37,168 nucleotides of DNA from Caldisericia bacterium (GTDB taxonomy: Bacteria; Caldisericota; Caldisericia; UBA6126). The stretch lies in assembly GCA_023146045.1 (NCBI GenBank), contig JAGLCW010000142.1:1-37168 (forward strand), written 5' to 3'. The translations under genes were made by a program, and so were the position numbers. Shown piece by piece: positions 9,361 to 37,168 of the stretch. The number at the start of each line of letters is the position of its first letter. The first letter of the stretch is position 1. The notes below the pieces were generated by a model. It saw only the letters and a list, made by a program, of their open reading frames with translations. It was not told the DNA's origin and did not search any database.

Positions 9361-9396
9361 AAAAAAAAGGAGAGATGCTCAAACATCTCTCCTTTT
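9361..9396 (-). terminator. Rho-independent terminator after the PQQ-propeller gene
   Basis: GGAGAGATG (9369-9377), a 6-nt loop and CATCTCTCC (9384-9392) form a perfect 9-bp stem, extended by A/T pairs. On the minus strand it ends in a run of eight T. It lies just past the 9411 stop and separates the secreted-protein genes from the pst promoter. The plus-strand T-run is only four bases, so it works best on the minus strand. Confidence 0.9.
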
Positions 9397-9410: not shown

Positions 9411-11720
9411 TTATTCAGTATAGATTAACTTTATTTTTACTTGAGTAGTATTCTCAGCTTCATCTTTTGCTCTAATTCTAACTATTTCTTCTTCTTTTTT
9501 CATTGTATATTCATACGTGAAAGACCCGTCTTCTCTAAATGTAACTTCTTTTGTACCAATTTTTAAAGTAGCTCCTAGTTCAATTTTTCCTGTTATCACA
9601 ACAGTTTTTGAATCTGTTTCTAAAACTCTAGGCAAATCAACAATTAATTGTGGGGGGATAGTGTCTTTTGTAATCATCCCTTGGAAGTCTATTTCTCTAC
9701 CGTCTTTTGCTGTTACGAGTATATTTACAGGATTTTCTCCTTCTACTAAGCGTATTCTGTCGTAGAAGTATCCGCTTTGATATGCATAGACAATGTAACC
9801 ATTAATAAGCACTTTCGCAAAAGGATCAGTTTCTCCTTCTAATACAAACTCTGCATCGTTCGTGATTACTCCCTCATCTGGAATATTAACATATAATGTT
9901 AATGGTTCTGTAACTAATATCGTAATTTCAAGTTCAATTGTTTTATTGCCTTTATTTGTTTCAACTAAAATTTTAGCTGTATTTTTCCCTTTTGGTAATC
10001 CCCCAGTGTCAATTGTAACAAAACAGCTTTGTATATTTTGTGTAATTGTTTTTGGAGTAATTTTTACCCATGATTCTGTTCCAAAAACATTTCCATTCAT
10101 TTTGTCTGTACCAGTCCAAACAACTCTAAAACTTCTTTGAACAATTTCTCCTTGATTTACATCTTGGATATAAATTGTTGAGGGCTCAGTATACAAAATT
10201 GGTTCAGCATTCTCTGAAAAACAATATAAGGCATTTCCAGAAACATATACTTCTTCTCCTGTAACAACAGGCATTCTACCATAATTACCAGTAGCATATC
10301 TATAATCAATTTTTCCATCTGCTTTACTCAAACAAATGAAATCGCCTTCGTATAGTATTGTGTATAGGTAATTCTTCGAAGCTAAAAGTTCTGTAAAGTA
10401 TGAAAATCTATCGTACTTTTCGTGCCACCACAATCTTTCTAAATCGTAGTTTATGCAATAAATACGCCCAGTGAAAGATGCTAAATAAATTGCATCTTTT
10501 GCTAAAGAGGGAGCAAAATTACCAAAATTTTCATCTTTAAAAACCATGCTTTGCTCAAGTTTCCCAGTTTCAATATTTACCTTTTGCAACCAACTTTCCT
10601 TTGGTGTTCCTCCTCCCCTTCTTCCCATTCTCATAGGATTTTCTGTAACATAAATATAACCATCTTTTATGCTTGGAGTACCAAGAAATCCATACTCTTC
10701 AAGCGGTTTTAAATACCAAACTTGTCTATCTTTTATTGTGTTAAAAGCGTAAAGTTGCGGAGGAATAAATGTTCTTGAGGCTCTGTCATATTTATATGCA
10801 GCTGCCATGATTACATCACCACTTTTTGTAATATATCCACCATAAAAAGAAAACTCTTCAATTTCAAATGTTTGTATCACATCGCCTTTAGTATCAAAAC
10901 AAGATATTTTACCGCCAGCAGTTTTTGTGAATGTGCTATTCATTCTACCTGATGCAACGTACACCAAATCACCATCTACAAGAGGTGGGCTTACCATAAG
11001 CTCTTGTTCAATTCTCTTGTGCCAAACTTCTTTTCCAGTTTTAAGGTCAACAGCGTAGATTAGTGACGAATCGTCTTCTATTCCTCTTCTAGAAAAAATT
11101 GGACCAAATGTTATGTACATTCTTTCTAAACTTATATCAATTCCAGCTACATATCTTTTCTCTTCAAGCGGATACTTCCAATTTGTAGATGCATCTTTAG
11201 CATTTATTGAATGAACATACCCACTATGGTCTGCAAAAAATATCTGATCTCCGTATACTTGGATATTTGTTATATAATCTCCATAAAAAAAATATCGCCA
11301 TAGCATAGATATCTTGTTGCTTGTTTCTAAATCTACATATCCAGAATGTTGATTATTCCCTTTAAACCCATGGAAGAAAAACGTATTCTCTTCTTCTTCG
11401 GGATCTTTATCGTCTTCTTCAGCAATCGTTGCATTTACAGCTTCTGGATTTAAAACATCAAAATTAATTGTTTCAGCAATTTCGACTGTTTTTTGATACT
11501 CACTAATAGAATATCCCGGAATAAACACTTCTGGGAGCATTACGTTGGAAAAATTTGGATGACCCATGGTAATAGATCTATAGCTTAATGTTTCAAACAC
11601 GGCTGGTCTATTGTTTTCGCTACATAAATCGTTACTTGCAAAAGCACTAATACCAACAAGCAAGCTACTAGACATTAGCAGTATAACAATAGTTGAAGCA
11701 ATAATTTTTAAAATTTTCAT
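9411..11720 (-). CDS. Exported PQQ-like beta-propeller protein with C-terminal Ig-like domains
   Basis: A 769-aa secreted protein. Signal peptide about 1-28 (hydrophobic core IIASTIVILLMSSSLLVG, cleavage near AFA|SN). An acidic linker EEDDKDPEEEEN lies near 100-112. From about 115 to 500 there are repeated blades of the PQQ-like/BamB-like propeller type, such as FFADHSGYVHSINAKDASTNWKY and YAVDLKTGKEVWHKR. The last 250 residues look like Ig-type or glucodextranase-B-like modules: VLEGETDPFAKVLINGYIV...ENPVNILVTAKDG and ITGKIELGATLKIG. No sortase motif, SLH domain or C-terminal helix is seen. Its ATG overlaps the stop of the 2207-aa gene (ATGA), so the two are co-expressed. True PQQ cofactor binding is not implied. 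Function is unknown; a structural or binding surface role is inferred. Confidence 0.85.
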   Translation of the reverse strand: MKILKIIASTIVILLMSSSLLVGISAFASNDLCSENNRPAVFETLSYRSITMGHPNFSNVMLPEVFIPGYSISEYQKTVEIAETINFDVLNPEAVNATIAEEDDKDPEEEENTFFFHGFKGNNQHSGYVDLETSNKISMLWRYFFYGDYITNIQVYGDQIFFADHSGYVHSINAKDASTNWKYPLEEKRYVAGIDISLERMYITFGPIFSRRGIEDDSSLIYAVDLKTGKEVWHKRIEQELMVSPPLVDGDLVYVASGRMNSTFTKTAGGKISCFDTKGDVIQTFEIEEFSFYGGYITKSGDVIMAAAYKYDRASRTFIPPQLYAFNTIKDRQVWYLKPLEEYGFLGTPSIKDGYIYVTENPMRMGRRGGGTPKESWLQKVNIETGKLEQSMVFKDENFGNFAPSLAKDAIYLASFTGRIYCINYDLERLWWHEKYDRFSYFTELLASKNYLYTILYEGDFICLSKADGKIDYRYATGNYGRMPVVTGEEVYVSGNALYCFSENAEPILYTEPSTIYIQDVNQGEIVQRSFRVVWTGTDKMNGNVFGTESWVKITPKTITQNIQSCFVTIDTGGLPKGKNTAKILVETNKGNKTIELEITILVTEPLTLYVNIPDEGVITNDAEFVLEGETDPFAKVLINGYIVYAYQSGYFYDRIRLVEGENPVNILVTAKDGREIDFQGMITKDTIPPQLIVDLPRVLETDSKTVVITGKIELGATLKIGTKEVTFREDGSFTYEYTMKKEEEIVRIRAKDEAENTTQVKIKLIYTE

Positions 11721-14700
11721 GGTTTTACCACCGGAATAAATGTTTCTGCTTCAAAATACTTTTCTTTTAAAGCATAGATCCTTACTTCTCTTTTTTGCTC
11801 AGGTGGTTTAACGTGGAAAACAATCTCGCCTTTTTCATTTGAGACCTTAGTCATAGAAAATCCTTCACCAGACATGGAGACAGTAACTCCTTCAATTGGA
11901 GCTTTTGTTCCTTTTTCAAGAAGTATTATTTTTATATCGTTATCATGATCCTGAATTAGATAATTTTCAACAGGTAATTTAATTTCAATAGCTTTAAGTA
12001 CATCAAAATGTGTTTTCAAATCAACAACATATTTTATTGGAAAATTAAATGTTTCTGGATAGTTTTTCACTAAATAATTATCTGATGAATAAAGCAAAGA
12101 AGCAGTATCTTCGCCAATACCAGTAGGAGTAAAAGAAATTGAGGCTCTTCTGTTGAATCGATCAACAGATTCCACGCCACCATAAATTGAGGACTCATGT
12201 TGATTGCCTTGTAGATGTACCCACCCACCTTCTATTGCCATATCTCGGCTATCTGCAGGAGTAATATATATATAAAATGCATTTGTCATGCCATATACCA
12301 AATCGTAATTCCCTGGGCAAAGCAAATCACGTCTTAGCGGCAATTGCGTTTCGGAATCTCTAATAGCAACTTTTGGAGGCCCTATGGCAATATTTCTGTC
12401 TGGTAGTGCATCCCAATCAAGTTTAAAAATTCCGTCTGCAAGAGAATAACCATTCGCTGAATCCCATGTTTTCCTAAATCTACCCAAGATTGACGTTGGG
12501 TCATCAGAAAAAGTAGGAGGTTTTCCAACTACATCATTAAAAATTAGAGAGTCAGAATAATCATTGCAATTCACCAACACTCCAATATCACATACATCTT
12601 CCGCATAAACAAAGAAATACACTTCACCATTTTTATCAATGTCAAATGAGTCTTCTTTGGTTAACATCCCGTCTTTATCAAAATCTGTAAACATATAAAC
12701 CCCATCATGAGCATAGTTGTAAATACAACCATAACCCCAACCATCATTTTCTATCATTGTTGGATTTGGAAGAATTCTACCGGATTTTGAAAATAACCCA
12801 CTATCGTACATTGTGTTTGTAGTATTATAGAATACTTCTTCAGCATCTACATCATATTCGTTGTGGAAGCCAGCCATTTGAAAAGTATTTGATGGGTTAA
12901 TTTCTATTTTTCCTAAATCATCCATTATGCTCATATGCAAAAAATACCCATCTGGAACATAATCAAAATTTTCTGATAAATCAAAACTTGCAGGCTTTGT
13001 TGTGTAAGGAGTCATTCTTCCTGAATGAACAAGGGTTTCTCCAGCATCTTCTGATCTGAATGGATTTCCTCTGTTTACGCCTTTAATTAATTTTCCTTGT
13101 GCATTAAAGGCTTGAACCCCAAGCAAATAAATCTTGTTTGTTCCAGCAGTCATAAGAAAATCAGGATCGCCAATCTCAATAGCTCCTCGAACCTGACCTT
13201 TTCTATCCATAAATAATGGCATAATGTTATACTCAATGGATGGAGAAGCTACTTTAACAAAAGTTCTTCCCATATGTAGATGGTCTGGGCTATAAACAAC
13301 TACTTCAAAGGCTCCTTCATCATTTGCTAAAAAGTTTTTAAACTTGTATTTTCCAACTCTACTTTCATCAAAATCAATTCCAATTGGAGAAAACCGATTG
13401 TTTGGTTTTGAGTACATCTTTACATTACAATCATCTTTTAAATCCATATTGTGTAAGTCAGTACGAGTCCAATAGTACTGAGGTAATGGTTCTTTGGGGG
13501 TATCAACAAACAAGTGCTGCCATACATCATTTTCATCAACGTTTGATCTTCCGTTTGGATCCATTACGCCAAAAGTGAAATCTAAGTACATTCCAGTAGA
13601 ATCCTGGACAACAAATGATAACGGGTTTCCTGGATCCACTAATTCTGATATACAGCCAGCAGTTAATGGAGACGGATAAGTCCCAACAATTAAATCTTCA
13701 TGAGCTTTAATCTTTATATTTTTTTCACCAGCTAGATAAACTTCATGAGATCGCCAATGGTATTTTGGTGTAAAAGCTCTATCTCCATTATCATCGTAAA
13801 ATTTGTATGCGCTCAAATATATTGGGGTTACTTCTTCGGTTGAAATTACATGATCCATTCTTCTAGAAAATCTATCTCCCACTCTACTGCAAAAGTCTGT
13901 ACCATACTGTGTTATCTGAGTCCCAGTAGCCTCTGTTAATTCTAGAGGATACACACCATTATTAACATTATATGTTCTTCCATCAAATACTCCACCAGAC
14001 CACGTGTTTGTATCTAAATAATAAGTACCAATAATCTCTGTTTCCCAATCTGCAAACGAAACTTTTTCATCTTCATTTAAATCTAACCAAGCGTTTCCAC
14101 CGAAATTGATTCGACCATCTCCTGCACCAATTTCGTATGGATCTAACGCCATTGAAGTATAATATCTGATTCCACGATCTTGCCACAGTATAACATAAGC
14201 ATTATTGCAATATTTTGATTCTTGATAAGGTTCATCTTCATAAAGTGTTGGTTTCAAAACATGATCCGAGAAAACCTCTAAACTATCTGGAACATTTTCA
14301 AAATCAAGTCCATGAACCGGTATTCCAACGACAGGTTTTTCGCTACAACAATCACCAAGTTCAATTTCTGTGCCATCTGCTAATATAATTTTTACATGTA
14401 GATTCCCACTTCTAAGAAGAGTAAGCTCTGGTATGTTTATAACAGCTGGTATTCCTCTATAATCTAGTATCCCAGTTCTTACTAATAGTGGATTCCAATC
14501 TTCTTCTTCAAAAACTATTTCATTGGCACCAAACCCTATTGAACCAGACCAATTTTTACCACTAGATTGATACCACTTTGCTATAGATCTATCTATCACC
14601 AATTTTCCAGTTTCATTAAATAATAATGGAATACGACTACTTGGGATTACGCTCCCGTCATCTCTATCAAGAACTTGAGGGCATTTAAATGGTCCTTCTA

Positions 14701-17700
14701 CAATAATTTTATCAATCCTTCTATTCGAAGGCATGTCTTCACCAAAAGCGATAAATTCTCCAGCTTTATTTTGTAACGTGAAAATAATATCATAATCGGT
14801 CATTGGATATTGCTCTGTCCCCAATTTTCGAAATGGACTATCTTCGTAAATAGCTTTTGATATTGTTGGGGTTGAACTAAAGCCAAATGCTCCTGATCCT
14901 CTCCTGTATTTTCTCATGTATCTGGTTCTACCAATATGTGTTTGTCCAGCTGGATATGCAATAAAATCAAGGTTCCAGTTTTGAACCAAAGGATTATAAG
15001 GAGAAACAATAACCGGATCATCCATCGGATACAAAGGATGATCACCAGCAGTGTAGTCTACACTTGAATATTGCAAACCATGATCAACAATTGCTAGATT
15101 CGTAAAGTTCACATCCTCCACTACAGGCGACTTAAGAGTTTTCCACCCAAGATATTGAATCTGTCCAGATTCAATTTGCTTAAACACAGGTGGATGGTCC
15201 AAAGAATTGTTATAATCATACAAAGCATTTTTTGCGTATGTCCTAAGTTTAAATTCATCTCCACCAAATATTGGCAAAAGAGCTATTGGATAGTCTCCAC
15301 CTGGATCTCCTTGATTCAAATCCCCATAGGTTTCAAACAATATGTCAACACCAAATTTCTCCACTCTAGCATTTTTAATAATGAACTGTACTCCATTTAT
15401 TTCCAGCTCATGCATTCCTCCATCGAAGATACCAATTTCATCGTTAAAAGTTATTCTGTTAAAATCAATATCATCTGATGGATATAAGTTAAATCCTTCA
15501 GAACAATCTGCATTAAAGAAAGATGGCTCTTCATATATAAACATCGGAGTTGGAGACAATTTATCTGCAAAATTCAAAATTCCTTTTGGCTCCACGTCTT
15601 GCCAAAACCAAAAACAATAACTTCTGTCTCTATTTACCTGTACAATGTATCTATCAATTCTAGTATTTGAAGTAGCATAAGCTGTAAAAAAATAATCTAT
15701 TCCAGCGCCTGTAGCGTTGTAATTTCCAATAATTTGCTCATTATTCCTAGATGAAATAATTGGATATGGATCGTTAACGTCTAGTGGATTGTCAGCATCG
15801 TTCAAATGAGCCCAAAGATTTGGAAATCTTAAATCAAATGTAGACACACATTTTTTTGACGGCACAATACTTGCATCTTCTGGGAAAACATTAAATGATA
15901 ATTGTGTATAATAGTCTGTAGAAAAATTGTCTGGCAAAAGACTTTCGAACCTTTTTTGGCGATTATCTATTTTGGACTCATAAAAGTATGAGTTATAAAC
16001 ATGATCAATGAAATCAAACCTTTTATAGTCAACACCTTGAGAGTCTACAAAAACAAGTAAGGAAAGCGGATATTCCCACCCTTTTTTTGTAAAACTACTT
16101 GTATATGGAGTAATTGTGTAAGCCTCTTTGATAGTTTTTTGATCTTTGTTAATTCTTTGCTTAATCATTGGCATTGGATATCTAGAAGAAATCAAAGAAG
16201 GTTCTTCAATAAATACATAAGTTGTTCGTTTTTCTTTTCCTGGTAAAAGATCTACTTTTATTTCTGTAGTTTGCTCTACTTTTAGTGTATTTGACAATTC
16301 AGTGCGGATATCTTGTTTGCCTGGTTGTACTGGCAAATCTAAGTACCTGAAATTTCCATTTCTCCACATTGATAGTCCATAAAAATGAGAAAATCTGTAA
16401 AAGTACGATGTTGTTTCAACGATTGTACCTTCTAGATAAATTTTCCCAAAAATACTTACTGGAGTGATTCTTGTGTCTTGAGCCTGCACAAAAAACATTC
16501 TTTGCACAATGGATTGTTTCTTATATATAGGTTCTCCAACATCTATGGTCCCATTTAAGTTGTTGCTTTCATCATTGCTAAAACGATCTGTCCAAAGATA
16601 GTCGCTGCCAATTGAATCAAGAATAAATCCATAGTCAGCGTCGCCTGTTGTAACAATCGAGCCAGCAATGTATTCTATTTCATTCAAACCATTAAGAACT
16701 TTTACATCAATTATTCTTTCGTCTCCCTGAGAAACTATGTCGTTTTCATCAGTATCTCTATATATTGGATCTCCAACTCCAAATCCATTTCCACTAGTAT
16801 CATGAAACAGTATTGTGTTCTCAATCGGGAATAATGAAGTTTTGAAATCTATGTCAGATGTTCTATCTGACATTCCAAGAATTTCCTCAGAAAATCCATT
16901 TTCTTTGAAATTATCAAACAAATCGTAGGCTTTAATTTTAGAATTTTCAAGAGCGAGCTTATTATTTATACCATTGTCATAGAACCATTCAATTCCAAGA
17001 TACCCAGCGTATTCTGGTTTAACTTGATTAACAAATTGCGAAAATATATATGAATCACCACTTACAAGAACACCCTGAGATAGTGAAACAAATGAATTTG
17101 GAACATCTGAATTTGGTGAAACCAACCGTATAGAAAAATAATCTTTGGTAGAAGTAATAATATTTGTTTCAAACCCAATATCGTTTCTCTCTCCGGTAGA
17201 AGGGATTTCAAATAAACAGAATGCATCGTTTGTGTGTATGCCCCAATTGATGAGAGAATAATCATTTTTGTCAATTTTAATATCTACCGGTAAAAGTCTG
17301 ACACTATTTTCTAAAACTTTCTCTTTTGAAGAATCTGATACATCGTAAATAAATTCTTTAAAAAGTTCATATTCATATTTTTTGCCAACAGAATACTTTC
17401 CATCAACTATGACTTGATCTGAATGCATTTCATTAATCGTAAATGGAATTAAATCTTTACCAACATCAAGGTCTCCAAATTGTACAATTGATAAAACCTC
17501 ATACTGAATTTTTTGATCTTGGAAAAAAACAGGGGATAGCCTCGTATCTCCAAATTGAACTTCATTAGCTAATGGATTAACTATTCTATATATTGTTTCA
17601 AATGGGTTGTACTTGCTGTCTATTTCAACATTTTCTGTGTGCTTTTCATTTTGGTTAAACCGAATTAAGCTTAATTCAAAATCCCAGTCTTTTTTTAAAA

Positions 17701-18340
17701 CCAAGGAACCAATTTGGTAGTCGATCCTATCTAGTAGAGAAACAAGAAATTCTCTTTCTTCAATTTGAATGATATTGTTTTCGCTATTTATGATATTTGC
17801 TATTGGATATGGTCCTAAAGTATTATTCCCGGCGTCTGTATCCACAGAATATCTAATTCTTCCATCTAGAATATTAGCATTATTGCAACTTCCTTCAACA
17901 AATGAAGGGTTGTTAGGATCATTTTGTGGGTTGTATATGCAGTTTTGAAATTTACCATCTGGATCCAACCAGATGTTATTGTGATCATCTAAAACAACGT
18001 AATATTTTCCACTACCTATGGTTTTGCCACTTTCTGGATATAGATTTAAATAAAATTCTGTATACATTACAGGCTTTGTTGTTTCTCCAGAAAGAGTATC
18101 CGTCATTTGGAATATGTCGTTGCCCCACGGAATGGATTTGTATTTTTGCCACGGAAAAATTCTATTCTCGTCTAACTTTTTTTCTTCATAATCATATCCA
18201 ACACTATACCAATGCTGCATACTCTGGATCCAAGAAGATACAACTTGATTAGTATTTGCATCAGCATTTTGCAATCTTCCAAAAGTAGATAAAACCAGCA
18301 CAAAGGATACAATCCATACAATAATGTGTTTCTTATGCAT
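11717..18340 (-). CDS. Giant secreted protein of unknown function (2207 aa)
   Basis: I do not recognise a named family over most of the length. Signal peptide: MHKKHIIVWIVSFVLVLSTF, cleavage probably near ADA|NT. The body is rich in Tyr, Asp, Asn and Pro with beta-strand-like segments. Asp/Asn-rich loops resemble calcium-binding dockerin or EF-hand-like turns: DTSGNGFGVGDPIYRDTDEND (about 515-535), NNLNGTIDVGEPIY (about 590-600), DGRINFGGNAWLDLNEDEKVSFADWE and DFDKDGMLTKEDSFDIDKNGE. The end (IEGVTVSMSGEGFSMTKVSNEKGEIVFHV) looks like a carboxypeptidase-regulatory or Ig-like fold. Some 15-20 cysteines are scattered along it. No catalytic motif or wall anchor is seen. AGAGG lies eight nt before ATG 18340. 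It is co-translated with the downstream propeller gene. Likely a surface or matrix protein; that is inference. Confidence 0.8.
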   Translation of the reverse strand: MHKKHIIVWIVSFVLVLSTFGRLQNADANTNQVVSSWIQSMQHWYSVGYDYEEKKLDENRIFPWQKYKSIPWGNDIFQMTDTLSGETTKPVMYTEFYLNLYPESGKTIGSGKYYVVLDDHNNIWLDPDGKFQNCIYNPQNDPNNPSFVEGSCNNANILDGRIRYSVDTDAGNNTLGPYPIANIINSENNIIQIEEREFLVSLLDRIDYQIGSLVLKKDWDFELSLIRFNQNEKHTENVEIDSKYNPFETIYRIVNPLANEVQFGDTRLSPVFFQDQKIQYEVLSIVQFGDLDVGKDLIPFTINEMHSDQVIVDGKYSVGKKYEYELFKEFIYDVSDSSKEKVLENSVRLLPVDIKIDKNDYSLINWGIHTNDAFCLFEIPSTGERNDIGFETNIITSTKDYFSIRLVSPNSDVPNSFVSLSQGVLVSGDSYIFSQFVNQVKPEYAGYLGIEWFYDNGINNKLALENSKIKAYDLFDNFKENGFSEEILGMSDRTSDIDFKTSLFPIENTILFHDTSGNGFGVGDPIYRDTDENDIVSQGDERIIDVKVLNGLNEIEYIAGSIVTTGDADYGFILDSIGSDYLWTDRFSNDESNNLNGTIDVGEPIYKKQSIVQRMFFVQAQDTRITPVSIFGKIYLEGTIVETTSYFYRFSHFYGLSMWRNGNFRYLDLPVQPGKQDIRTELSNTLKVEQTTEIKVDLLPGKEKRTTYVFIEEPSLISSRYPMPMIKQRINKDQKTIKEAYTITPYTSSFTKKGWEYPLSLLVFVDSQGVDYKRFDFIDHVYNSYFYESKIDNRQKRFESLLPDNFSTDYYTQLSFNVFPEDASIVPSKKCVSTFDLRFPNLWAHLNDADNPLDVNDPYPIISSRNNEQIIGNYNATGAGIDYFFTAYATSNTRIDRYIVQVNRDRSYCFWFWQDVEPKGILNFADKLSPTPMFIYEEPSFFNADCSEGFNLYPSDDIDFNRITFNDEIGIFDGGMHELEINGVQFIIKNARVEKFGVDILFETYGDLNQGDPGGDYPIALLPIFGGDEFKLRTYAKNALYDYNNSLDHPPVFKQIESGQIQYLGWKTLKSPVVEDVNFTNLAIVDHGLQYSSVDYTAGDHPLYPMDDPVIVSPYNPLVQNWNLDFIAYPAGQTHIGRTRYMRKYRRGSGAFGFSSTPTISKAIYEDSPFRKLGTEQYPMTDYDIIFTLQNKAGEFIAFGEDMPSNRRIDKIIVEGPFKCPQVLDRDDGSVIPSSRIPLLFNETGKLVIDRSIAKWYQSSGKNWSGSIGFGANEIVFEEEDWNPLLVRTGILDYRGIPAVINIPELTLLRSGNLHVKIILADGTEIELGDCCSEKPVVGIPVHGLDFENVPDSLEVFSDHVLKPTLYEDEPYQESKYCNNAYVILWQDRGIRYYTSMALDPYEIGAGDGRINFGGNAWLDLNEDEKVSFADWETEIIGTYYLDTNTWSGGVFDGRTYNVNNGVYPLELTEATGTQITQYGTDFCSRVGDRFSRRMDHVISTEEVTPIYLSAYKFYDDNGDRAFTPKYHWRSHEVYLAGEKNIKIKAHEDLIVGTYPSPLTAGCISELVDPGNPLSFVVQDSTGMYLDFTFGVMDPNGRSNVDENDVWQHLFVDTPKEPLPQYYWTRTDLHNMDLKDDCNVKMYSKPNNRFSPIGIDFDESRVGKYKFKNFLANDEGAFEVVVYSPDHLHMGRTFVKVASPSIEYNIMPLFMDRKGQVRGAIEIGDPDFLMTAGTNKIYLLGVQAFNAQGKLIKGVNRGNPFRSEDAGETLVHSGRMTPYTTKPASFDLSENFDYVPDGYFLHMSIMDDLGKIEINPSNTFQMAGFHNEYDVDAEEVFYNTTNTMYDSGLFSKSGRILPNPTMIENDGWGYGCIYNYAHDGVYMFTDFDKDGMLTKEDSFDIDKNGEVYFFVYAEDVCDIGVLVNCNDYSDSLIFNDVVGKPPTFSDDPTSILGRFRKTWDSANGYSLADGIFKLDWDALPDRNIAIGPPKVAIRDSETQLPLRRDLLCPGNYDLVYGMTNAFYIYITPADSRDMAIEGGWVHLQGNQHESSIYGGVESVDRFNRRASISFTPTGIGEDTASLLYSSDNYLVKNYPETFNFPIKYVVDLKTHFDVLKAIEIKLPVENYLIQDHDNDIKIILLEKGTKAPIEGVTVSMSGEGFSMTKVSNEKGEIVFHVKPPEQKREVRIYALKEKYFEAETFIPVVKP

Positions 18341-18420
18341 ATACCAAACCTCTTTTGTCTTTTCTAGTGATTATTGTACATGGAAAAGGAAAAAGAAGTT
18401 ACAAAATGTATTAAATTGCG

Positions 18421-19854
18421 TTAATCTACAGGTAGTAGATATTTCATAAAAAATCCATCCCATGACCCATAAGAATCATTAGTTATGAGATGCTCAATCG
18501 GGTTTACTGAAATTGAGGAAGACATAGTTCTACCAGAAATATATAAATTTCTTTCTTTAGAATTCCAATAAATATCATCTACAGAATCTCTATCATTCCC
18601 ACCAACAAAGCTTGAGTAGTCAAGTTTACAATTTTCTATATTTAATTTTAATATGAACCCGTCAGACCAGCCACCTTGAAAATCCTTATTTATAGCATTT
18701 TCAGTTGTTGGAAATCCAGCATTTGAAAAAGTTCTTCCAACAATTATTGGTTTATCGTCAATACATATTATCTGTTCGGGGAACTCAGTTTTTTCACCAC
18801 CGAAAAAACTAGAATATTCAAAAGTTTTTTTGTTACAATCAAATACAACTATAAACCCGTCTGTAAGCCCTTTTAATGACAATTGAAATGCATTTGGAGT
18901 TATAGGAAAATTACTCGAATAAGTTCTCCCTGTTAGATACAATCTTCCATTTTTTGAATATGCCATAGCTTTCGCAAAATCGTTTCGGCTGCCACCAAAA
19001 TATGAAGAGTACTCAGGAAGACCATCTTTGTTGAGTACGACAATAAACAAATCCCACTTACCACCGTTAAAAGATTTATTATAAGCATTCTCAGTAACTG
19101 GTAAATCGTAGGAAGATGTTCTCCCATAAAAAATAGCTCTATCGCCAACAATGCATAAATCTCCAGAAAATTCTTCTTTAGAACCACCGATGTATGTTGA
19201 ATAATCTAGCCTGTTTTCATTCATATTGTATTGAAAACAAAAAGCATCAGTAATTCCATATAATCTTTTTTGAAAAGCATTTTCAGTAACTGGTAGATCG
19301 TTAGACCAAGTTGTCCCTGCTATATTGATTATTCCTTTTTCCGTTGGACTTATTGAAGTACACATGTCCATGAGAGCTCCACCAAATAAAGAACTATAAA
19401 GTATTTCACCTTCTAGGTTTAATATCAAAAAAAACCCGTCATCTAGACCGCTCAATGTAGAAAACAAAGAATCCTTTGTAGTTGGAAAATCTGGAGATCT
19501 TGTACTTCCACAAATGAATATTTTCCCATTTAAAATTGTAGAATCAATAAGATATTCATTGCCTGATCCACCTATATTTTTTTGGAAAATCTCTTTAGAA
19601 AAATCCTTGGAATACTTCGCAATATAAATTTCACTATTAGGTTTATTTTCTAAGGGACTCTCTACAACAATTGTGCATATAGAATAATTATTGCCCTGTG
19701 AATCAGTAAAAATTTTCACTGACGAATCCTTTTCAAGATGATATATCATATTAACATTTGAAAAAGGTAAAACCACAAATCCTTGTAATGATAAAATGAC
19801 AGACATAAGAACAAACACTAAGAAACTCGATAATAGTTTTTTAAAAACAAGCAT
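18421..19854 (-). CDS. Exported SBBP-repeat beta-propeller protein
   Basis: A 477-aa secreted protein with a hydrophobic signal (LLSSFLVFVLMSVILSL). The mature part has about six repeats of 55-60 residues, each with the core YSSxxGG, then GRTxSxxFPxTENAFxxxxxG and WDGF, for example YSSYFGG, YSSFFGG and YSSFVGG. This is the SBBP (seven-bladed-beta-propeller-associated) repeat layout. No enzymatic motif or anchor is seen. AAGGAGG sits six nt before ATG 19854 and a strong TTGTAA-17-TATAAT promoter lies upstream, so expression is probably high. The gap of 80 nt before the 2207-aa gene holds no clear terminator, so the three secreted-protein genes may be one transcript. Confidence 0.87.
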   Translation of the reverse strand: MLVFKKLLSSFLVFVLMSVILSLQGFVVLPFSNVNMIYHLEKDSSVKIFTDSQGNNYSICTIVVESPLENKPNSEIYIAKYSKDFSKEIFQKNIGGSGNEYLIDSTILNGKIFICGSTRSPDFPTTKDSLFSTLSGLDDGFFLILNLEGEILYSSLFGGALMDMCTSISPTEKGIINIAGTTWSNDLPVTENAFQKRLYGITDAFCFQYNMNENRLDYSTYIGGSKEEFSGDLCIVGDRAIFYGRTSSYDLPVTENAYNKSFNGGKWDLFIVVLNKDGLPEYSSYFGGSRNDFAKAMAYSKNGRLYLTGRTYSSNFPITPNAFQLSLKGLTDGFIVVFDCNKKTFEYSSFFGGEKTEFPEQIICIDDKPIIVGRTFSNAGFPTTENAINKDFQGGWSDGFILKLNIENCKLDYSSFVGGNDRDSVDDIYWNSKERNLYISGRTMSSSISVNPIEHLITNDSYGSWDGFFMKYLLPVD

Positions 19855-19877: not shown

Positions 19878-19906
19878 ATTATACTTCTTGAGGATATTTG
19901 TTACAA
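19878..19906 (-). promoter_or_regulatory. Promoter of the secreted-protein cluster
   Basis: On the minus strand TTGTAA (19906-19901), a 17-nt spacer and TATAAT (19883-19878) form a near-consensus housekeeping promoter. The expected transcript start lies a few nt before the AAGGAGG of the SBBP gene. Confidence 0.8.
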
Positions 19907-21181: not shown

Positions 21182-21994
21182 ATGAAAAAGCTTTGCATTT
21201 TAATTGTTCTTTTAGTAGCATCAACTTCTTTAATGTCATGTTCTTTTTCTGAAATGTTTTTCCAGAAGAAAATAGAGCAAGACCCTCCACAAAAGATAGA
21301 AGAAACCTCAAGTATAAAGGATGTTTCTTTTTCTTTTAAAGTAGACTCTCCAATAATCTACATAAACGATGTACCAGTTGAACTAGAGGTGCCAGTACAA
21401 GAAATTGATGGTAGAACAATGCTTCCGCTGTCATTTTTTAAAGATTTTTGCAATATGAAAAACGTAGCATATGATCCAAAGAATGAGATTATTACATTTT
21501 CCATGCCGATCGACCAATCTCTTATCCCAACAGAAAATATTGGTTTCTCTGAAATTCTTCCTGGCGTTAAGAATGAATGGTATACAACAGAATACAATGA
21601 TCCGTTTATTGGAAATGTTAGCATTTCCATTGTGGTTATGGATTCTTTTTCTGGCTTAAAAGCCAATGAGCTTGTAGCACTTGATGATCCACTAAATCAA
21701 ATACCTGGAGAAACTCAACAATATACAATAGCTAAAGTAAAAGTAAAACTAATTTCTCTAGAATCAACAGACAACTACCCCATAGACACCTCCGCTATAT
21801 CATTTTTACTACCAGACGATAACGAACTGCACAAGGAAAACATTATTAAAGATTTAAACTCCACTATGGAAACTGTTATGAGAGAAGGCCAAGTTATTGA
21901 ATTCGATGTTGCAGTTCTCGCAGAAAATGATTTAGCTCCAATACTAGTGTTTTTAAATAATTCCCAATCTCCAATATATATAAGTTTGAAGTAA
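21182..21994 (+). CDS. Lipoprotein with copper-amine-oxidase-like stalk domain
   Basis: A 270-aa lipoprotein; lipobox LMSC with Cys20. Residues about 55-105 (SPIIYINDVPVELEVPVQEIDGRTMLPLSFFKDF...VAYDPKNEIITFSM) match the copper amine oxidase N-terminal 'stalk' fold, common in exported Firmicutes and Thermotogae proteins and not an oxidase by itself. The C-terminal half (TIAKVKVKLISLESTDNYPIDTSAISFLLPDDNE...REGQVIEFDVAVL) looks like a DUF4352-type Ig-like domain. GGAG lies seven nt before the ATG. It sits between the dGTPase-like gene and the nuclease gene, with 10-nt and 2-nt gaps. Function unknown. Confidence 0.85.
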   Translation: MKKLCILIVLLVASTSLMSCSFSEMFFQKKIEQDPPQKIEETSSIKDVSFSFKVDSPIIYINDVPVELEVPVQEIDGRTMLPLSFFKDFCNMKNVAYDPKNEIITFSMPIDQSLIPTENIGFSEILPGVKNEWYTTEYNDPFIGNVSISIVVMDSFSGLKANELVALDDPLNQIPGETQQYTIAKVKVKLISLESTDNYPIDTSAISFLLPDDNELHKENIIKDLNSTMETVMREGQVIEFDVAVLAENDLAPILVFLNNSQSPIYISLK

Positions 21995-22651: not shown

Positions 22652-23539
22652 CTATCTTAGAGAAAACTCAACCTTCTTTTTGAAAACAATGAGTTGGTCT
22701 TCAAATTTTTCTTTTACTTTTAAGTCATTCACAACTAGTGTTTTAAAGAAGAGACTAGTTATGGAAGCAATATCTTGAAATCCTACAGAAAAACTAGATG
22801 ATACAGACTTTAACCTATTTTTGTAGTGCTCTTTAGATTCGTTATCATCAGAAAGCATAACAACATACTCGTAGGCTTTCTCGTAATTCCCAGACCTAAG
22901 ACTATTATCGATCCTTTTTTCTATTGCTTCTTCTCTGCAATCGTCCATCTCTTTGCTTTTAGGATTATACTGGACTGCAACGCTGTAATAAGTAATTGCA
23001 GAACTTAAATTTCCTTCATTTTCCTGTTGAATGGCTTTTTGAAAATATTCTTCTGCTTTTTTGGGATTTTCTTCGACGCAGTAAACTGAAGACTTAGTCA
23101 AAAAAAACGGTTTAGCAATAAATTTAAATCCAGCCATAAGAATACCTACAAAAAGAAAAACAATTAGTATGCCATAGAAAACATTGGTTTTTTTCTTTAT
23201 AGGTATCTTCTTCTTTTTAGGTTCAATTGTAGATCTATACTTTGCATCAATCATTCCCAGATAGCTTAGTATCCACAATCTCGCTTGTTTTGCTACTTCT
23301 TTTGGTAAAATAACTTCAAATCCTGCTTCATAATTATACACTAATTGAACAATTGCCATGGAATCATCTGTAGAGTCACGACAAACGGTAATATCTTGCA
23401 ATATTCTCACTGGGACCTTAAATTTTTGATCTTTATTGTCGTTGGCATATATTAACAATCCCTCATTAATAATAAAATATCCGTATTGTCCATCACCAAG
23501 CTGAAAAACCCTTGGTCTCTCACTGGCCATATCAATCAT
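22652..23539 (-). CDS. TPR-containing single-pass membrane protein
   Basis: A 295-aa protein with no named family. Residues 1-100 form a soluble beta-rich domain (VFQLGDGQYGYFIINEGLLIYAND, FEVILPKEVAKQARLWILSYLG). A basic stretch KKKKIPIKKK precedes one membrane helix (about 119-142). The C-terminal part has a TPR-like unit, AEEYFQKAIQQENEGNLSSAITYYSVAVQYNPKS, and a helical tail. By the positive-inside rule the first domain is cytosolic and the TPR part outside. The start overlaps the previous stop (ATGA). It is the last gene of the serine dehydratase operon. Confidence 0.75.
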   Translation of the reverse strand: MIDMASERPRVFQLGDGQYGYFIINEGLLIYANDNKDQKFKVPVRILQDITVCRDSTDDSMAIVQLVYNYEAGFEVILPKEVAKQARLWILSYLGMIDAKYRSTIEPKKKKIPIKKKTNVFYGILIVFLFVGILMAGFKFIAKPFFLTKSSVYCVEENPKKAEEYFQKAIQQENEGNLSSAITYYSVAVQYNPKSKEMDDCREEAIEKRIDNSLRSGNYEKAYEYVVMLSDDNESKEHYKNRLKSVSSSFSVGFQDIASITSLFFKTLVVNDLKVKEKFEDQLIVFKKKVEFSLR

Positions 23540-24090
23540 GGTTCTACCCAGGTTAACGTAACAAATTCATGGTTTGGAGACCATTCTACTTTTGTTTTTA
23601 AAAGCTTGGAAATAAAAATCACGGTTACATATGCTCTCTCATTAATAATTACTGGAGTAATCTCATGTTTCTCTTCATCAATCCATATGTTTTTCTCATT
23701 CATTTCTGCTTTTGGATTGCCAATTTGAAGTACTGCAGAAGTGTTTGTTGATCCTTTTGTGATTAATATTTTTTTCCATTCAGCATTCCATTTAATTTTT
23801 ACTCCCATATTTTTTACTACACCACTAATAGGAATAAATACTCTGTCCCATTTATCAATAAATATTGGAGTTGCTTTTTTTTCAACATCTATAAGCATTG
23901 TTACTCCATCTACAGTCATGTATGGATTTTTCAACTGAAGGTAAACGTAGTGTTCTTCTTTAGTTTGAAATGGACTAGCAAACACTAAACTTGGGATAAA
24001 AATAATGCAACAGAGTAATAAAGAAACATAAAACTTAGTAAATCTTTGCAAACTATTTCTTTTTTTATGCGGGATCTCTTGGGTCTCCAT
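23536..24090 (-). CDS. Exported copper-amine-oxidase-like stalk-domain protein
   Basis: A 184-aa exported protein. After a basic N-terminus (HKKRNSLQRF) comes a hydrophobic signal (VSLLLCCIIFIPSLVFA) with cleavage likely at FA|SP. The rest resembles stalk-domain repeats: KNPYMTVDGVTMLIDVEKKATPIFIDKWDRVFIPISGVVKNMGVKIKWNAEWKKILI, then KNIWIDEEKHEITPVIINERAYVTVIFISKLLKTKVEW. AAGGA lies eight nt before ATG 24090, inside the end of sdaAA (26-nt overlap). The gene overlaps the TPR-protein gene by four nt. Role unknown; probably cell-envelope. Confidence 0.78.
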   Translation of the reverse strand: METQEIPHKKRNSLQRFTKFYVSLLLCCIIFIPSLVFASPFQTKEEHYVYLQLKNPYMTVDGVTMLIDVEKKATPIFIDKWDRVFIPISGVVKNMGVKIKWNAEWKKILITKGSTNTSAVLQIGNPKAEMNEKNIWIDEEKHEITPVIINERAYVTVIFISKLLKTKVEWSPNHEFVTLTWVEP

Positions 24091-28851: not shown

Positions 28852-29976
28852 ATGAAACGGTTTTTTATGTGGCTGGTTGTTTTGTCATTAGTAATATCTG
28901 CCCCCATATCTGTTTTTGCATCCAAAACTACAACACCAGAAAAAAAATCTTCGCTTGCAATAAACCAAGATCATTTTTACAGCGGCACAATGGTTGATCT
29001 AGAAAATATTACTGTTGGAAGAAATATGTTTGTCATTGCGCAAACATTTATCAACCAGTCTGATATATTAATGGATGCTTTCGTATGTGCAAACAGCTAT
29101 AAAGACTCTGGTTTAATAGCGGGCAATGCCTTTGTTTTCACAGGAGCTTCAAACATTAATAGTTCTATTAATGGCGATTTATTTATCTGTTCTGGAGAAA
29201 TAAAACTTTCAGAACAAGCACATATCATGGGGAATGTATATGCAATTGGAAGTACTTTAACGATAGACGGGAAAGTAGATGGTAAAGTTTCATTTTTGGG
29301 TCAAAATTTTGTACTAAATGGTCAAGTGAAAAGTGCAGATATTTCTGCTGAAACCGTTAAAATTGGTTCTACAGCAATTGTAAATGAAACTTTTGAATAC
29401 AACTCTGATGCAAACTACTCAAAAATTGCTGGAGCAAAAATTGAAAAAGAAAATATCTTGGATAGTACAAAATTTACAGAACCAATACCAAAAAAAGAAT
29501 CTACTAGCGAAAAAATCAGTTCTTTGATTTTGAAACTACTATCTTCGCTAATTCTGGCATTTGTTTTGTTTTATATTTTTAAAAAATTCTCAATGGACGC
29601 AGTCAATAATTCTTTAAAAAATGTTTGGGTTTCCCTAGGCATCGGGGCAGTTACATTAGTTGCCCTGCCTATAGGGCTAATTATTCTTTTTTTAACACCA
29701 TTTGGATATAAAGTAGCATTTACAATGCTTTTTGGGGTTGGAACATTTTTCTTCTTTACACAAGCATTGGCTGGAATAACACTTGGAGTTTTGATTTACC
29801 AAATATTTACAAAAACTATTAGGATTGACTGGCTTACAATTCTAATCGGGGTAGCAACTCTTTGGTTGATTAACTATATCCCATATGTTGGCACAATTGT
29901 TCTAGTCGTGGCATATATCATAGCTACAGGTTCAATTTTACAAGTTTTATGGACAACCAATAATCCAAAAATTTAG
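28852..29976 (+). CDS. Exported bactofilin-like protein with C-terminal membrane helices
   Basis: A 374-aa protein. Signal peptide about 1-24 (FFMWLVVLSLVISAPISVFA|SK). Residues about 40-180 show a short beta-helix repeat typical of polymer-forming bactofilin-like domains: ENITVGRNMFVIAQTF, SGLIAGNAFVFTGASNINSSINGDLFICSG, HIMGNVYAIGSTLTIDGKVDGKVSFLGQNFVLNGQVKSADIS. About 225-370 holds four membrane helices. The signal places the beta-helix outside the membrane, unlike classical cytosolic bactofilins. AGGAGG precedes ATG 28852. It is followed by a strong terminator. A structural or scaffold role is inferred. Confidence 0.8.
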   Translation: MKRFFMWLVVLSLVISAPISVFASKTTTPEKKSSLAINQDHFYSGTMVDLENITVGRNMFVIAQTFINQSDILMDAFVCANSYKDSGLIAGNAFVFTGASNINSSINGDLFICSGEIKLSEQAHIMGNVYAIGSTLTIDGKVDGKVSFLGQNFVLNGQVKSADISAETVKIGSTAIVNETFEYNSDANYSKIAGAKIEKENILDSTKFTEPIPKKESTSEKISSLILKLLSSLILAFVLFYIFKKFSMDAVNNSLKNVWVSLGIGAVTLVALPIGLIILFLTPFGYKVAFTMLFGVGTFFFFTQALAGITLGVLIYQIFTKTIRIDWLTILIGVATLWLINYIPYVGTIVLVVAYIIATGSILQVLWTTNNPKI

Positions 29977-33553: not shown

Positions 33554-34810
33554 ATGAACACAAATTTCAAGTTTATACATTGTGCAGATTTGCATTTAGA
33601 CGCACCATTTAATGGCATCAATATAAGTAACCAGAAATTCCTGCAAATTCTTCGAAAATCAACCTTCTTAGCCTTTGATAAAATAATCAAAACAGCAATT
33701 TCTCAAAAAGTAGATTTTATGCTAATTTCAGGAGATATCTTCAATTCATCTGAAAAAAGTCTCTACGCACAATTATCTTTCTTAAAACAAATGGTAGTAC
33801 TCAAAAAAAATAATATTCCTTGCTTTTTAATTCATGGGAATCATGATCCTCTTAATGGGTGGGAGATTGAAACAAATTTTCCACAAAATGTTCACCGTTT
33901 TTCTTCAAATGTTTCTTGTGAAACAATAATAAAAAATGGAGAAGCACTAGTAAATATTATCGGGTATAGTTATCCAAAAAGGGAAGTTACAAAAAACATT
34001 TCATTGGATATTTCAAAAATTGCAAGAATGCAAAACAATGAAGCTTTCACAATTGGATTGTTACACTGCAATGTAGGAAAAAACACAACGACAGAGAATT
34101 ATGCTCCTTGTAGTTTAGCAGATTTAAATGATTCTACGGTAGACTATTGGGCACTAGGACACGTACACACAATGAATATTCTACAGCATGAAACTCCTGC
34201 TATAGTCTATCCTGGAAACCCACAAGGGCTACATATTAATGACAATACAAAAAAAGGATTCTACATTGTAAATGTACACAACAACAAACCAGAATTTGAT
34301 TTTATCAAAACCGCTCAATTTAGATGGTTTAATGTCACAATGATAATAGATGATAGTTCAATTCAAGATTTAATTGAAACTTTAAAACTAAAAATGTATT
34401 CAGAAAGTTTCGATATTCCTGGTATTTTCAGATTCCACATAGAAGGGCAAACAAATCTACACAATGAACTTCGCAAAAATGTTAAAGAAATTGAGAAAAT
34501 TCTTAGAGAAGAAACTGATGAAGAACAGTGCTTTCTTGAATCTATATTGATCAATACAAAACCACTTATCTCAATGGAAGAGCTTTCAGACAGACATGAT
34601 TTTATTGGTATTTTTTTAAAAAAGATGAATGAACTGTCTTATGAAAAAGAATCTGTCACATTTGTTTCAGACCTTCTTTCCGATTTCTCAGCGATAAATC
34701 TGCTAAATATTTTACCGAAACGTGGGGAAAAACTTAACTGGGAATCTGTAATTGAAGAAGCAAAAATGTTTGGTCTTGATTACCTAATGGAGAATGAACA
34801 TGAAACTTAA
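33554..34810 (+). CDS. YhaO/SbcD-like DNA repair exonuclease (metallophosphoesterase)
   Basis: A 418-aa calcineurin-like phosphoesterase of the Mre11/SbcD/YhaO group. Metal-binding motifs are in order: HCADLHLDAPF (Asp12, His14), ISGDIFNS (about 60), LIHGNHDP (about 96), LLHCNVG (about 170) and GHVHT (about 203). GGAG lies seven nt before the ATG. It overlaps the next gene, an SMC-like ATPase, by 11 nt; this nuclease-ATPase pairing is the Mre11-Rad50/SbcCD arrangement, here of the shorter YhaO-YhaN type. Expected to process DNA ends. Confidence 0.92.
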   Translation: MNTNFKFIHCADLHLDAPFNGINISNQKFLQILRKSTFLAFDKIIKTAISQKVDFMLISGDIFNSSEKSLYAQLSFLKQMVVLKKNNIPCFLIHGNHDPLNGWEIETNFPQNVHRFSSNVSCETIIKNGEALVNIIGYSYPKREVTKNISLDISKIARMQNNEAFTIGLLHCNVGKNTTTENYAPCSLADLNDSTVDYWALGHVHTMNILQHETPAIVYPGNPQGLHINDNTKKGFYIVNVHNNKPEFDFIKTAQFRWFNVTMIIDDSSIQDLIETLKLKMYSESFDIPGIFRFHIEGQTNLHNELRKNVKEIEKILREETDEEQCFLESILINTKPLISMEELSDRHDFIGIFLKKMNELSYEKESVTFVSDLLSDFSAINLLNILPKRGEKLNWESVIEEAKMFGLDYLMENEHET

Positions 34811-37168
34811 TTCATTTTGTATTGATAGATTTGGAGGTTACTCAAATGTGAGTATTAACAAAATTAATCCAGGCTTCACGCTTTTTTATGGAGAAAATGA
34901 AAGCGGAAAAACTACTTTAAAGAATTTCTTCCAACAGATGTTGTTTGGATTTGCAAAAAAAAATTCTAAATTTGATAAACAGTACATACCATTTGATGGA
35001 ACAGTACCTTCTGGTAATTTATCATTTGTTCTTTCTAATGAGAATCAATATCTTTTATCCAGGCTAGGGAATAAAACTAATTTAGTTTTGCCAGACACCT
35101 CAATTCTAAACAGCGAACCAATGACGCTTCTCTGGAATAGCATTACAAAAGAAACTTTTAGGCAAGTTTTTTGTATGGATATTCAAGATTGGAATGGTCT
35201 TTCACTTATGGACAAGGAAGAAATGCAGAATCGCTTTCTTTCTTCAAGCCTTGGATTAAATTCACTAATCAAATCTACAAAACAGTTAAAAACCAACATG
35301 GATGGCCTATGGAAAAAACAAGGTAGATCACAAGTTATACACGAAATTGATAAAAAGATTAAAGCAATTGATAAAGAGATTAAAAGTCAGGAAAAACTAA
35401 TTTCAGAATACAAACAGTGGGGGCAAGATTTATTTGAGCTAGAAGACACATTAAATTCCCTTAAAAATCAAAAAGGAGAAATTAACTCTCTATATAATGA
35501 AAAACTGTTATTAAATGAAATGAAACCAGATTGGGTCGAATGCAATATAATCAATCACAAGATGAAATTACTACAATATAACTTTAACAACAAACCATTT
35601 TCTGTAACATCGATTGAAAAAGCTAGAAAATTAGAAGATGAGATAAGAGCTTTAGAAGAAAGAAATGAGCTTGAAGCAACCAATTGCAGAAAATTTGTTT
35701 CTGAAAACAACAGTATTGCCATAGAAGAAGAGCTAATTCTTAAGCAAAATGAGATAAATTCTCTTGTAGAAAAAAAGAATCAATTCATCAAGGCAATTCA
35801 AGATGAACCAAAATTGTCTGGTGAAATTGAGCTTGAAAAAATTGATTTTATTGAAACTTTAAACCAAATTGATCCCAAATGGAGTACAGAAATATTGCAG
35901 CAGATTTGCATACCAATAGACCAAAAATCCTTGGTCAAATCATGGAAAACAGTTGATAGTGACAAAAGTTCCGAGATTAAAGCTATAAGTATTGAGATTC
36001 AGAAAATCAAAGAAGGAATTGATTCGAAAACACTAAGGATTACAAATCTCGTTAATAGAACAAAAGATACCGAAACTCTTACAAATGATGAATTTTATTT
36101 AACAACAAATACAATCAAAACTCTTAAAGAATATGAATCACACAGAGAAATAGTTGCAGGAACACAGTGGAAAACTAAAAATACGTATACAAAAAACATC
36201 AAGTTGCCCTTTGGAGTGCTAATATTTGGCATTGTCTTGTTTATGCTAGGAATCATTGGAGCCAACATTAGCACTATGTCAGCTCAAATTAAAAAAAGTT
36301 TAATCTTTCTTGATGTGATTGGTTTTTTTTCTATAGTGCTATTTTTCTTTTTAAAGCAATATTCATTTAAGTCTTTTCAGGAGACTTCTTTAAAAGATTT
36401 AAATGAAGAAATTAGAAATTACCGCAAAGACAACCCACTTATTAAAAATTACTACAAAGACTTACAGTTAACTGATTTAATTCTTTTTTTACAAAAGAAA
36501 CTGGATTCACATTCAGAAAAATATGACGTTTTAAAGCAGACTAAAATAGCAATTTCTAACCTAGATTCAGATATTAAGGTTCTGAATAATTCACTGTCTG
36601 TGAATAAAGAAAAACTTTCAACGCTTTTAGAAAAGAGAGAAGTTCTTCAAAAAAAATGGACGCTGTGGAAAGCCAACCATTTCATTCAGAATAACTTTTC
36701 ACTATTAGATTACGCTATTCTTTTTTCATTAATTGATCAGGCACAATCTAAACTGAAAAATCTGTTAAAAAGTGAATACAGATTGAAGGATTTAAGCGAC
36801 TTTATAGTACTAACAAAAACACATATTGAAGCACTATCGACACTTTTTAATACTACTGAAAGCGTAGTCAGTTTAAATCCTGAAGCAATAAGCACTCTTC
36901 AAACTAAACTATCTGAAACTTTAAGCGATAAAAGAAAAAAACTTTCGCTTAAAGAAAAAATTCAAACTTTCACAAAACAGATTGAAGAAACTAGATTTAG
37001 TATAGGAATAAAGCAAAAACAGCTTAAAAAAATATTCCTTGAAACAGAAACAATTACAATTTTAGAGCTAGAAAGCAAAACAGAGGCTTGGATTTCACAT
37101 AAAAGTCTAAACGAATCGTACAATCTGCATATGAACCGTCTTTATGGAAAAATCAGTAATGACAATGT
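34800..37168 (+). CDS. YhaN-like AAA/SMC-type ATPase, 3' end beyond window
   Basis: The frame from ATG 34800 stays open to the last base (789 codons and two bases), which is why it is absent from the ORF track. The N-terminus has a Rad50/SMC-like Walker A, FYGENESGKTTLKNFF (about 30-45), then long coiled-coil stretches (KKIKAIDKEIKSQEKLISEY, LEDEIRALEERNELE). Two membrane-like helices near 470-520 (PFGVLIFGIVLFMLGIIGA, SLIFLDVIGFFSIVLFFFL) interrupt the coil, as in YhaN-type proteins. The C-terminal Walker B half lies outside. GGAG seven nt upstream supports the start. Partner of the preceding nuclease. Confidence 0.9.
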   Translation, partial: MKLNSFCIDRFGGYSNVSINKINPGFTLFYGENESGKTTLKNFFQQMLFGFAKKNSKFDKQYIPFDGTVPSGNLSFVLSNENQYLLSRLGNKTNLVLPDTSILNSEPMTLLWNSITKETFRQVFCMDIQDWNGLSLMDKEEMQNRFLSSSLGLNSLIKSTKQLKTNMDGLWKKQGRSQVIHEIDKKIKAIDKEIKSQEKLISEYKQWGQDLFELEDTLNSLKNQKGEINSLYNEKLLLNEMKPDWVECNIINHKMKLLQYNFNNKPFSVTSIEKARKLEDEIRALEERNELEATNCRKFVSENNSIAIEEELILKQNEINSLVEKKNQFIKAIQDEPKLSGEIELEKIDFIETLNQIDPKWSTEILQQICIPIDQKSLVKSWKTVDSDKSSEIKAISIEIQKIKEGIDSKTLRITNLVNRTKDTETLTNDEFYLTTNTIKTLKEYESHREIVAGTQWKTKNTYTKNIKLPFGVLIFGIVLFMLGIIGANISTMSAQIKKSLIFLDVIGFFSIVLFFFLKQYSFKSFQETSLKDLNEEIRNYRKDNPLIKNYYKDLQLTDLILFLQKKLDSHSEKYDVLKQTKIAISNLDSDIKVLNNSLSVNKEKLSTLLEKREVLQKKWTLWKANHFIQNNFSLLDYAILFSLIDQAQSKLKNLLKSEYRLKDLSDFIVLTKTHIEALSTLFNTTESVVSLNPEAISTLQTKLSETLSDKRKKLSLKEKIQTFTKQIEETRFSIGIKQKQLKKIFLETETITILELESKTEAWISHKSLNESYNLHMNRLYGKISNDN

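Follow-up and report, generated by a model that had tools for sequence, protein, structure and literature searches.

A giant secreted protein of an unnamed family restricted to the Caldisericota, encoded in overlap with a secreted beta-propeller protein

The window analysed here, that is the whole stretch of 37,168 bases (contig 49 of a draft genome of 1.95 Mb in 253 contigs), carries on its minus strand three consecutive genes for an SBBP propeller, a 2207-aa giant and a PQQ-type propeller. This locus raises two questions: whether the three products belong together, and what the giant is. A preliminary description, made from the letters alone, had read the block as an exported trio filling about 30% of the window and encoding a co-expressed extracellular assembly. 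The open reading frames lie where it placed them and take up 10,444 bases (28%) (Table 1). The giant gene is conserved at 46-67% identity in related genomes, so the genes can be taken as real. Hydrophobic N-terminal signal sequences were recognized in the giant (c-region ADA) and in the 769-aa propeller (c-region AFA), and a plausible one in the SBBP protein, while reading of the three N-termini by eye revealed no lipobox.

Table 1. Features of the locus, in window coordinates.
Feature	Position	Strand	Remarks
SBBP beta-propeller, secreted, 477 aa	18421..19854	-	Pfam; at the locus in the same genus only
Giant secreted protein, 2207 aa	11717..18340	-	signal sequence, N-terminal region, unnamed core, CarboxypepD_reg-like last domain; without Ig pair and CAO domain (family-specific HMM, Pfam)
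EF-hand-like loop DTDENDIVSQGD, residues 529-540	16721..16756	-	resembles one GExIYxDxDxNxxVxxGDxR unit
Family core of the giant, residues 1077-1990	12371..15112	-	938-position profile A2
EF-hand-like loop DLNEDEKVSFAD, residues 1420-1431	14048..14083	-	DxNxDGxISFxD in nearly all members
Second EF-hand-like loop DFDKDGMLTKED, residues 1886-1897	12650..12685	-	kept in close relatives
Last domain of the giant, residues ~2135-2207	11720..11938	-	aligns with the CarboxypepD_reg-like domain of paralogues
PQQ/BamB-type propeller, secreted, 769 aa, two C-terminal Glucodextran_B-type Ig domains, without CAO	9411..11720	-	
PQQ_2 match in the propeller, residues 219-471	10308..11066	-	Pfam
Ig pair of the propeller protein, residues 609-769	9414..9896	-	Pfam, Ig-pair comparison
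Promoter-like TTGTAA-N17-TATAAT	19878..19906	-	consensus match, weak evidence
Intrinsic terminator hairpin, then T run	9365..9396	-	folding energy vs shuffles

A profile search of each protein assigned the two smaller ones to known families and left the giant without one. The SBBP match (8.7e-8, 32.4 bits against a Pfam cut-off of 20.5) is found in the 477-aa protein alone among the three, and the 769-aa protein combines a PQQ_2/BamB propeller (1.1e-13) with Glucodextran_B Ig domains (2.4e-14). Between these parts, residues ~503-600 look BACON-like by eye and gave in Pfam a weak DUF5717_N match alone (E 0.013). At the back of the block the strong terminator described earlier is present as a hairpin of -19.9 kcal/mol (z -7.2 vs shuffles), which was detected by folding energy against shuffles and was not reported by a consensus terminator scan. 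The near-consensus promoter at the front does exist and is well placed upstream of the SBBP gene, but such matches are no commoner in the window than in shuffled DNA (43 found, 54 expected), and a functional role for the site is suggestive only. Elsewhere in the window, positions 28852-29976 encode a protein with a weak bactofilin match slightly under the Pfam cut-off, and positions 33554-37168 an Mre11/SbcD-like nuclease and, after it, an AAA_27 ATPase truncated where the window stops, likely an SbcCD-type pair.

Comparison with relatives gave a divided answer on synteny: homologues of the SBBP gene are scattered, whereas the giant and the 769-aa propeller stay together. The loci compared were those of the window, of G001 (same genus), of G003 and G004 (one other genus) and of G002 (another genus). 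Besides the window, only G001, another species, has all three genes together; its neighbourhood is spread over two contig ends with the same flanking genes, and identities to the window are 48% (SBBP), 54-67% (giant) and 57-59% (propeller). In G003 the place of SBBP upstream of the giant is taken by a histidine kinase gene, and the block as a unit outside the genus was consequently rejected; the contigs of G002 and G004 end upstream of the giant, so that the presence of SBBP is readable only at the other loci. Gene order as read in these genomes thus makes the SBBP propeller an optional, genus-specific neighbour, and a three-protein assembly is not supported. The idea that the SBBP protein is the only one to have lost an anchor was also rejected, its homologues being mixed, some with and many without the C-terminal CAO domain (PF07833).

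The part of the earlier proposal that stands concerns the other two genes. They overlap by ATGA, four bases, out of frame, and an out-of-frame overlap of 4-28 bases recurs at each of the six loci seen, which represent five species and three genera: four bases in the window, G001, G003 and one G004 locus (G004:C159), 22 in G002 and 28 in the other G004 locus (G004:C162). G004 apparently holds two giant-propeller pairs, in one of which the giant (L004, G004:C159, ~2455) is interrupted by a single in-frame TAA, which is either genuine or due to misassembly. Recurrence of the overlap across three genera supports co-expression, and a co-translated pair is well supported by these gene arrangements. 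The overlap itself is evidence of coupled expression at most and none of a complex, and the arrangement suggests that the two proteins may work together outside the cell. They could instead be mere neighbours within a broad set of surface proteins, overlapping because the genome is compact and acting separately. Such secreted proteins are indeed abundant (82 stretches matching PF07833 in this 1.95-Mb genome) and SBBP was not retained at the locus; the overlap, however, persists at six loci in three genera though the flanking genes differ, and it survived the apparent duplication of the pair in G004. We regard this separate action of the two proteins as unlikely, though it is the strongest competitor of a joint role.

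As to the giant itself, no match was found in Pfam, NCBIfam or PHROGs, its three segments scanned separately at E<=10 gave no match either, and comparison with PDB sequences returned chance-level matches only. It had been described as a protein with no recognised family, which holds for these libraries, but it is not an orphan, being one of about 12 paralogues. Homologues of the giant retrieved in a search of 101 genomes are mostly 2200-3100 residues long and occur several per genome. Alignment of the core of 15 members showed ~80 invariant residues common to all; the core has no internal repeats. The window giant matches profile A2 over its full length (positions 1-938 of 938), the profile having been built from 15 core sequences with this giant among them; a single-sequence search also recovers the family. 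With the core profile, 12 of the phylum's 54 genomes were found to have the family, against 0 of the 332 outside it; within the window's own class, the profile search found no core in families f3 and f5. The window's own genome carries about 12 core genes, of which 11 have the core entire or for the most part and one is a short form of ~970 aa; its 12 core-bearing ORFs, several of them truncated at contig ends, make up at least 3.7% of the genome, and in these draft genomes many family genes are cut in this way. The short form consists of the second half of the core, an Ig pair and CAO (L083:2818-5715, L085, L087, L041, L054), and is the only family form found in G005. Relatives of the giant were absent from a plasmid collection and from a viral contig collection, and a match in a Paraglaciecola genome contig (39 residues at 44%) was judged to be due to chance. 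On these searches, the giant is a member of an as yet unnamed family of very large secreted proteins, probably surface-exposed, that is restricted to one little-known phylum, the Caldisericota; no description of such giant proteins for this phylum was found in the open-access literature. A hitherto undescribed family thus fills 3.7% or more of this small genome and yet matches nothing in the reference libraries.

What the core does can be approached through its sequence, single-sequence structure predictions having proved unusable (mean pLDDT 30.7 for the C-terminal 708 residues of the giant and 34.3 for the propeller). Its length, the many invariant polar and aromatic residues (WQDRG, GxGDG, SHEVYLAG) and the lack of internal repeats, unlike a typical stalk, would suit an extracellular enzyme or substrate-binder involved in the degradation of polymers or peptides, with the propellers as binding modules. 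Amino-acid catabolism genes in the window, and a C25 peptidase gene adjoining the orthologues in another family, f6, point the same way; on the other side, neither Pfam, NCBIfam nor PDB yielded a match to an enzyme family, nor is a catalytic motif recognisable, and we consider a degradative role rather improbable, slightly more so than independent neighbours. Equally doubtful is a bolder proposal, in which the core would be a new fold or non-repetitive arrangement building the surface coat in part of the phylum, and the pair a secreted two-protein machine that has lost its surface tail. If true, a coat-building core would exist in about 12 versions within one small genome.

Another feature of the giant is a set of calcium-type loops. 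It contains four EF-hand-like loops where 0.37 are expected, none of 300 shuffles having more than 3, and two of them sit in alignment columns conserved among relatives. The GExIYxDxDxNxxVxxGDxR unit forms tandem repeats in other giants, and a regular expression for this loop repeat found no match in the window giant. A search of PDB sequences with the core gave no relative beyond a chance-level match to an S100 EF-hand (E 0.6), which covers the conserved loop (DxNxDGxISFxDxE). From the loops, we infer that the giant may be stabilised by calcium. In family f4, giants without the core (L057:6453-15770, L059:3-7928) carry 12 EF-hand-like loops each against ~0.4 in shuffles, many of them in tandem GExIYxDxDxNxxVxxGDxRLT repeats.

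The C-terminal end sets the window giant apart from its family. Typical members are ordered as signal sequence, N-terminal region (often with the loop repeat), core, CarboxypepD_reg-like domain, Ig pair of Glucodextran_B type and C-terminal CAO. The Pfam match to CarboxypepD_reg occurs in paralogues only and was assigned to the window giant by alignment; paralogues run on past this domain into Ig pair and CAO, and the window giant stops there. Ig-pair matches were obtained in 35 core-bearing ORFs, and among core ORFs with an intact C-terminal end the pair is missing from the window clade alone; one more ORF, G013:C11, breaks off close to a stretch of unknown bases, the Ig tail lying in the ORF that follows. 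In 47 of the 50 CAO-bearing ORFs examined, no more than 20 residues separate CAO from the C-terminus, and some core members (G001:C29, G009:C26a, G013:C33a, G000:C178) have the Ig pair without CAO according to our own HMM. Because it lacks an Ig pair in the same ORF, the window giant represents a divergent subgroup of the core family and not a typical member.

In the core tree (47 sequences) the window clade forms one branch (100/100) whose stem is long, at 1.01 changes per site, and which is sister (99/96) to the 2707-aa f6 orthologues. These carry the Ig pair within the giant ORF, with no propeller gene adjacent; one of them still gives a weak CAO match with Pfam. Beside the orthologous giant in f6 genomes lies, divergently oriented, a gene for a secreted C25 (gingipain-type) peptidase (L036:14861-17047; Pfam in one genome). 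The giant ends just before the position of its relatives' Ig pair and the next ORF ends in such a pair, an arrangement that would also arise if one giant gene had been split, its Ig pair passing to the downstream ORF upon insertion of a propeller module. The Ig-pair tree, however, groups the window-type propellers with propeller-Ig-CAO proteins elsewhere in the class (90/80, a moderate support), apart from the Ig pair that the orthologous giants carry. A derivation of the propeller's Ig pair from the giant is therefore disfavoured at that level of support, and with it the splitting of one gene as the origin of the pair, by far the least probable course considered here. The grouping points rather to two tailed surface proteins that became neighbours and lost their tails.

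That none of the three proteins has a visible anchor, as had been remarked, was borne out: neither Pfam nor the family-specific HMM found PF07833 in the trio, Pfam found no SLH domain, and the three C-termini when read showed no sorting motif (LPXTG type) with hydrophobic tail. This is unusual, as the giant's relatives and the propeller's distant relatives end in Ig pair and CAO, the propeller too being devoid of the CAO domain of those relatives. Every one of the phylum's 54 genomes has PF07833 itself, some 2-Mb genomes with at least 80 matches, and two further PF07833 proteins are encoded in the window (21182-21994, where the N-terminus is lipobox-like, and 23536-24090). In family f7, which lies outside the window's class, genomes have only 8-14 PF07833 matches and as many as 45-62 for SLH, whereas those of the window's class have 1-18 for SLH, as if the main surface domain had been exchanged. 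The domain occurs in OlpC, a cell-surface protein of Clostridium thermocellum (PMC3413522). In the surfaceome of Desulfotomaculum reducens it is associated with cell-wall hydrolases (PMC4137172), and in a Paenibacillus SOD it drives dimerisation (PMC10432803). Since its role is unsettled across these published cases, a missing CAO need not mean a missing anchor.

We tentatively favour, at somewhat under an even chance, a giant that, as an unanchored and divergent offshoot of a surface family confined to the phylum, acts in an extracellular complex with the propeller. Translated in a coupled manner from overlapping genes, both proteins would be exported by Sec and would associate outside the cell, calcium holding the giant stable and the propeller serving as binding partner. 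The complex may then be released, or held non-covalently on a surface coat made by the CAO-bearing paralogues. At the level of sequence, the adhesive layer, sheath or binding complex suggested earlier would all look alike.

Several known systems resemble parts of this pair. The propeller matches PQQ_2 and BamB structures by sequence; it scores 50.8 bits, though, against the curated NCBIfam cut-off of 285.2 for BamB, has no lipobox and carries two Ig domains. Caldisericum has been described as possessing an outer membrane. Omp85 was not found in the window's own genome and is missing from 53 of the 54 genomes of the phylum (PF01103 in one), control genomes with outer membranes having given matches. 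The lack of a lipobox, the Ig domains and the missing Omp85 make a BamB role unlikely. The 12-residue loops of DxNxDGxISFxD type recall dockerin and EF-hand loops, but they are single, stand in an unrelated context and have no Pfam dockerin or EF-hand match. Giant surface proteins built from SLH domains or repeats, and adhesins, are likewise very large, exported and lineage-specific, and share with this family the Ig-like C-terminal domains of the paralogues and the calcium-type loops; they differ in that the giant's core is non-repetitive and without a family, and signatures of SLH, LPXTG or outer-membrane secretion were not seen. Finally, the window giant and propeller lack PF07833, and the core is unrelated to the modules listed for PF07833 surface proteins such as OlpC and those of the D. 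reducens surfaceome; like these, however, the family is secreted and combines PF07833 with unrelated modules, most of the giant's relatives having it at the C-terminus. For this very common yet poorly understood domain, a tail-bearing orthologue set against a tail-less clade with a coupled partner offers a natural comparison of its role in surface proteins.
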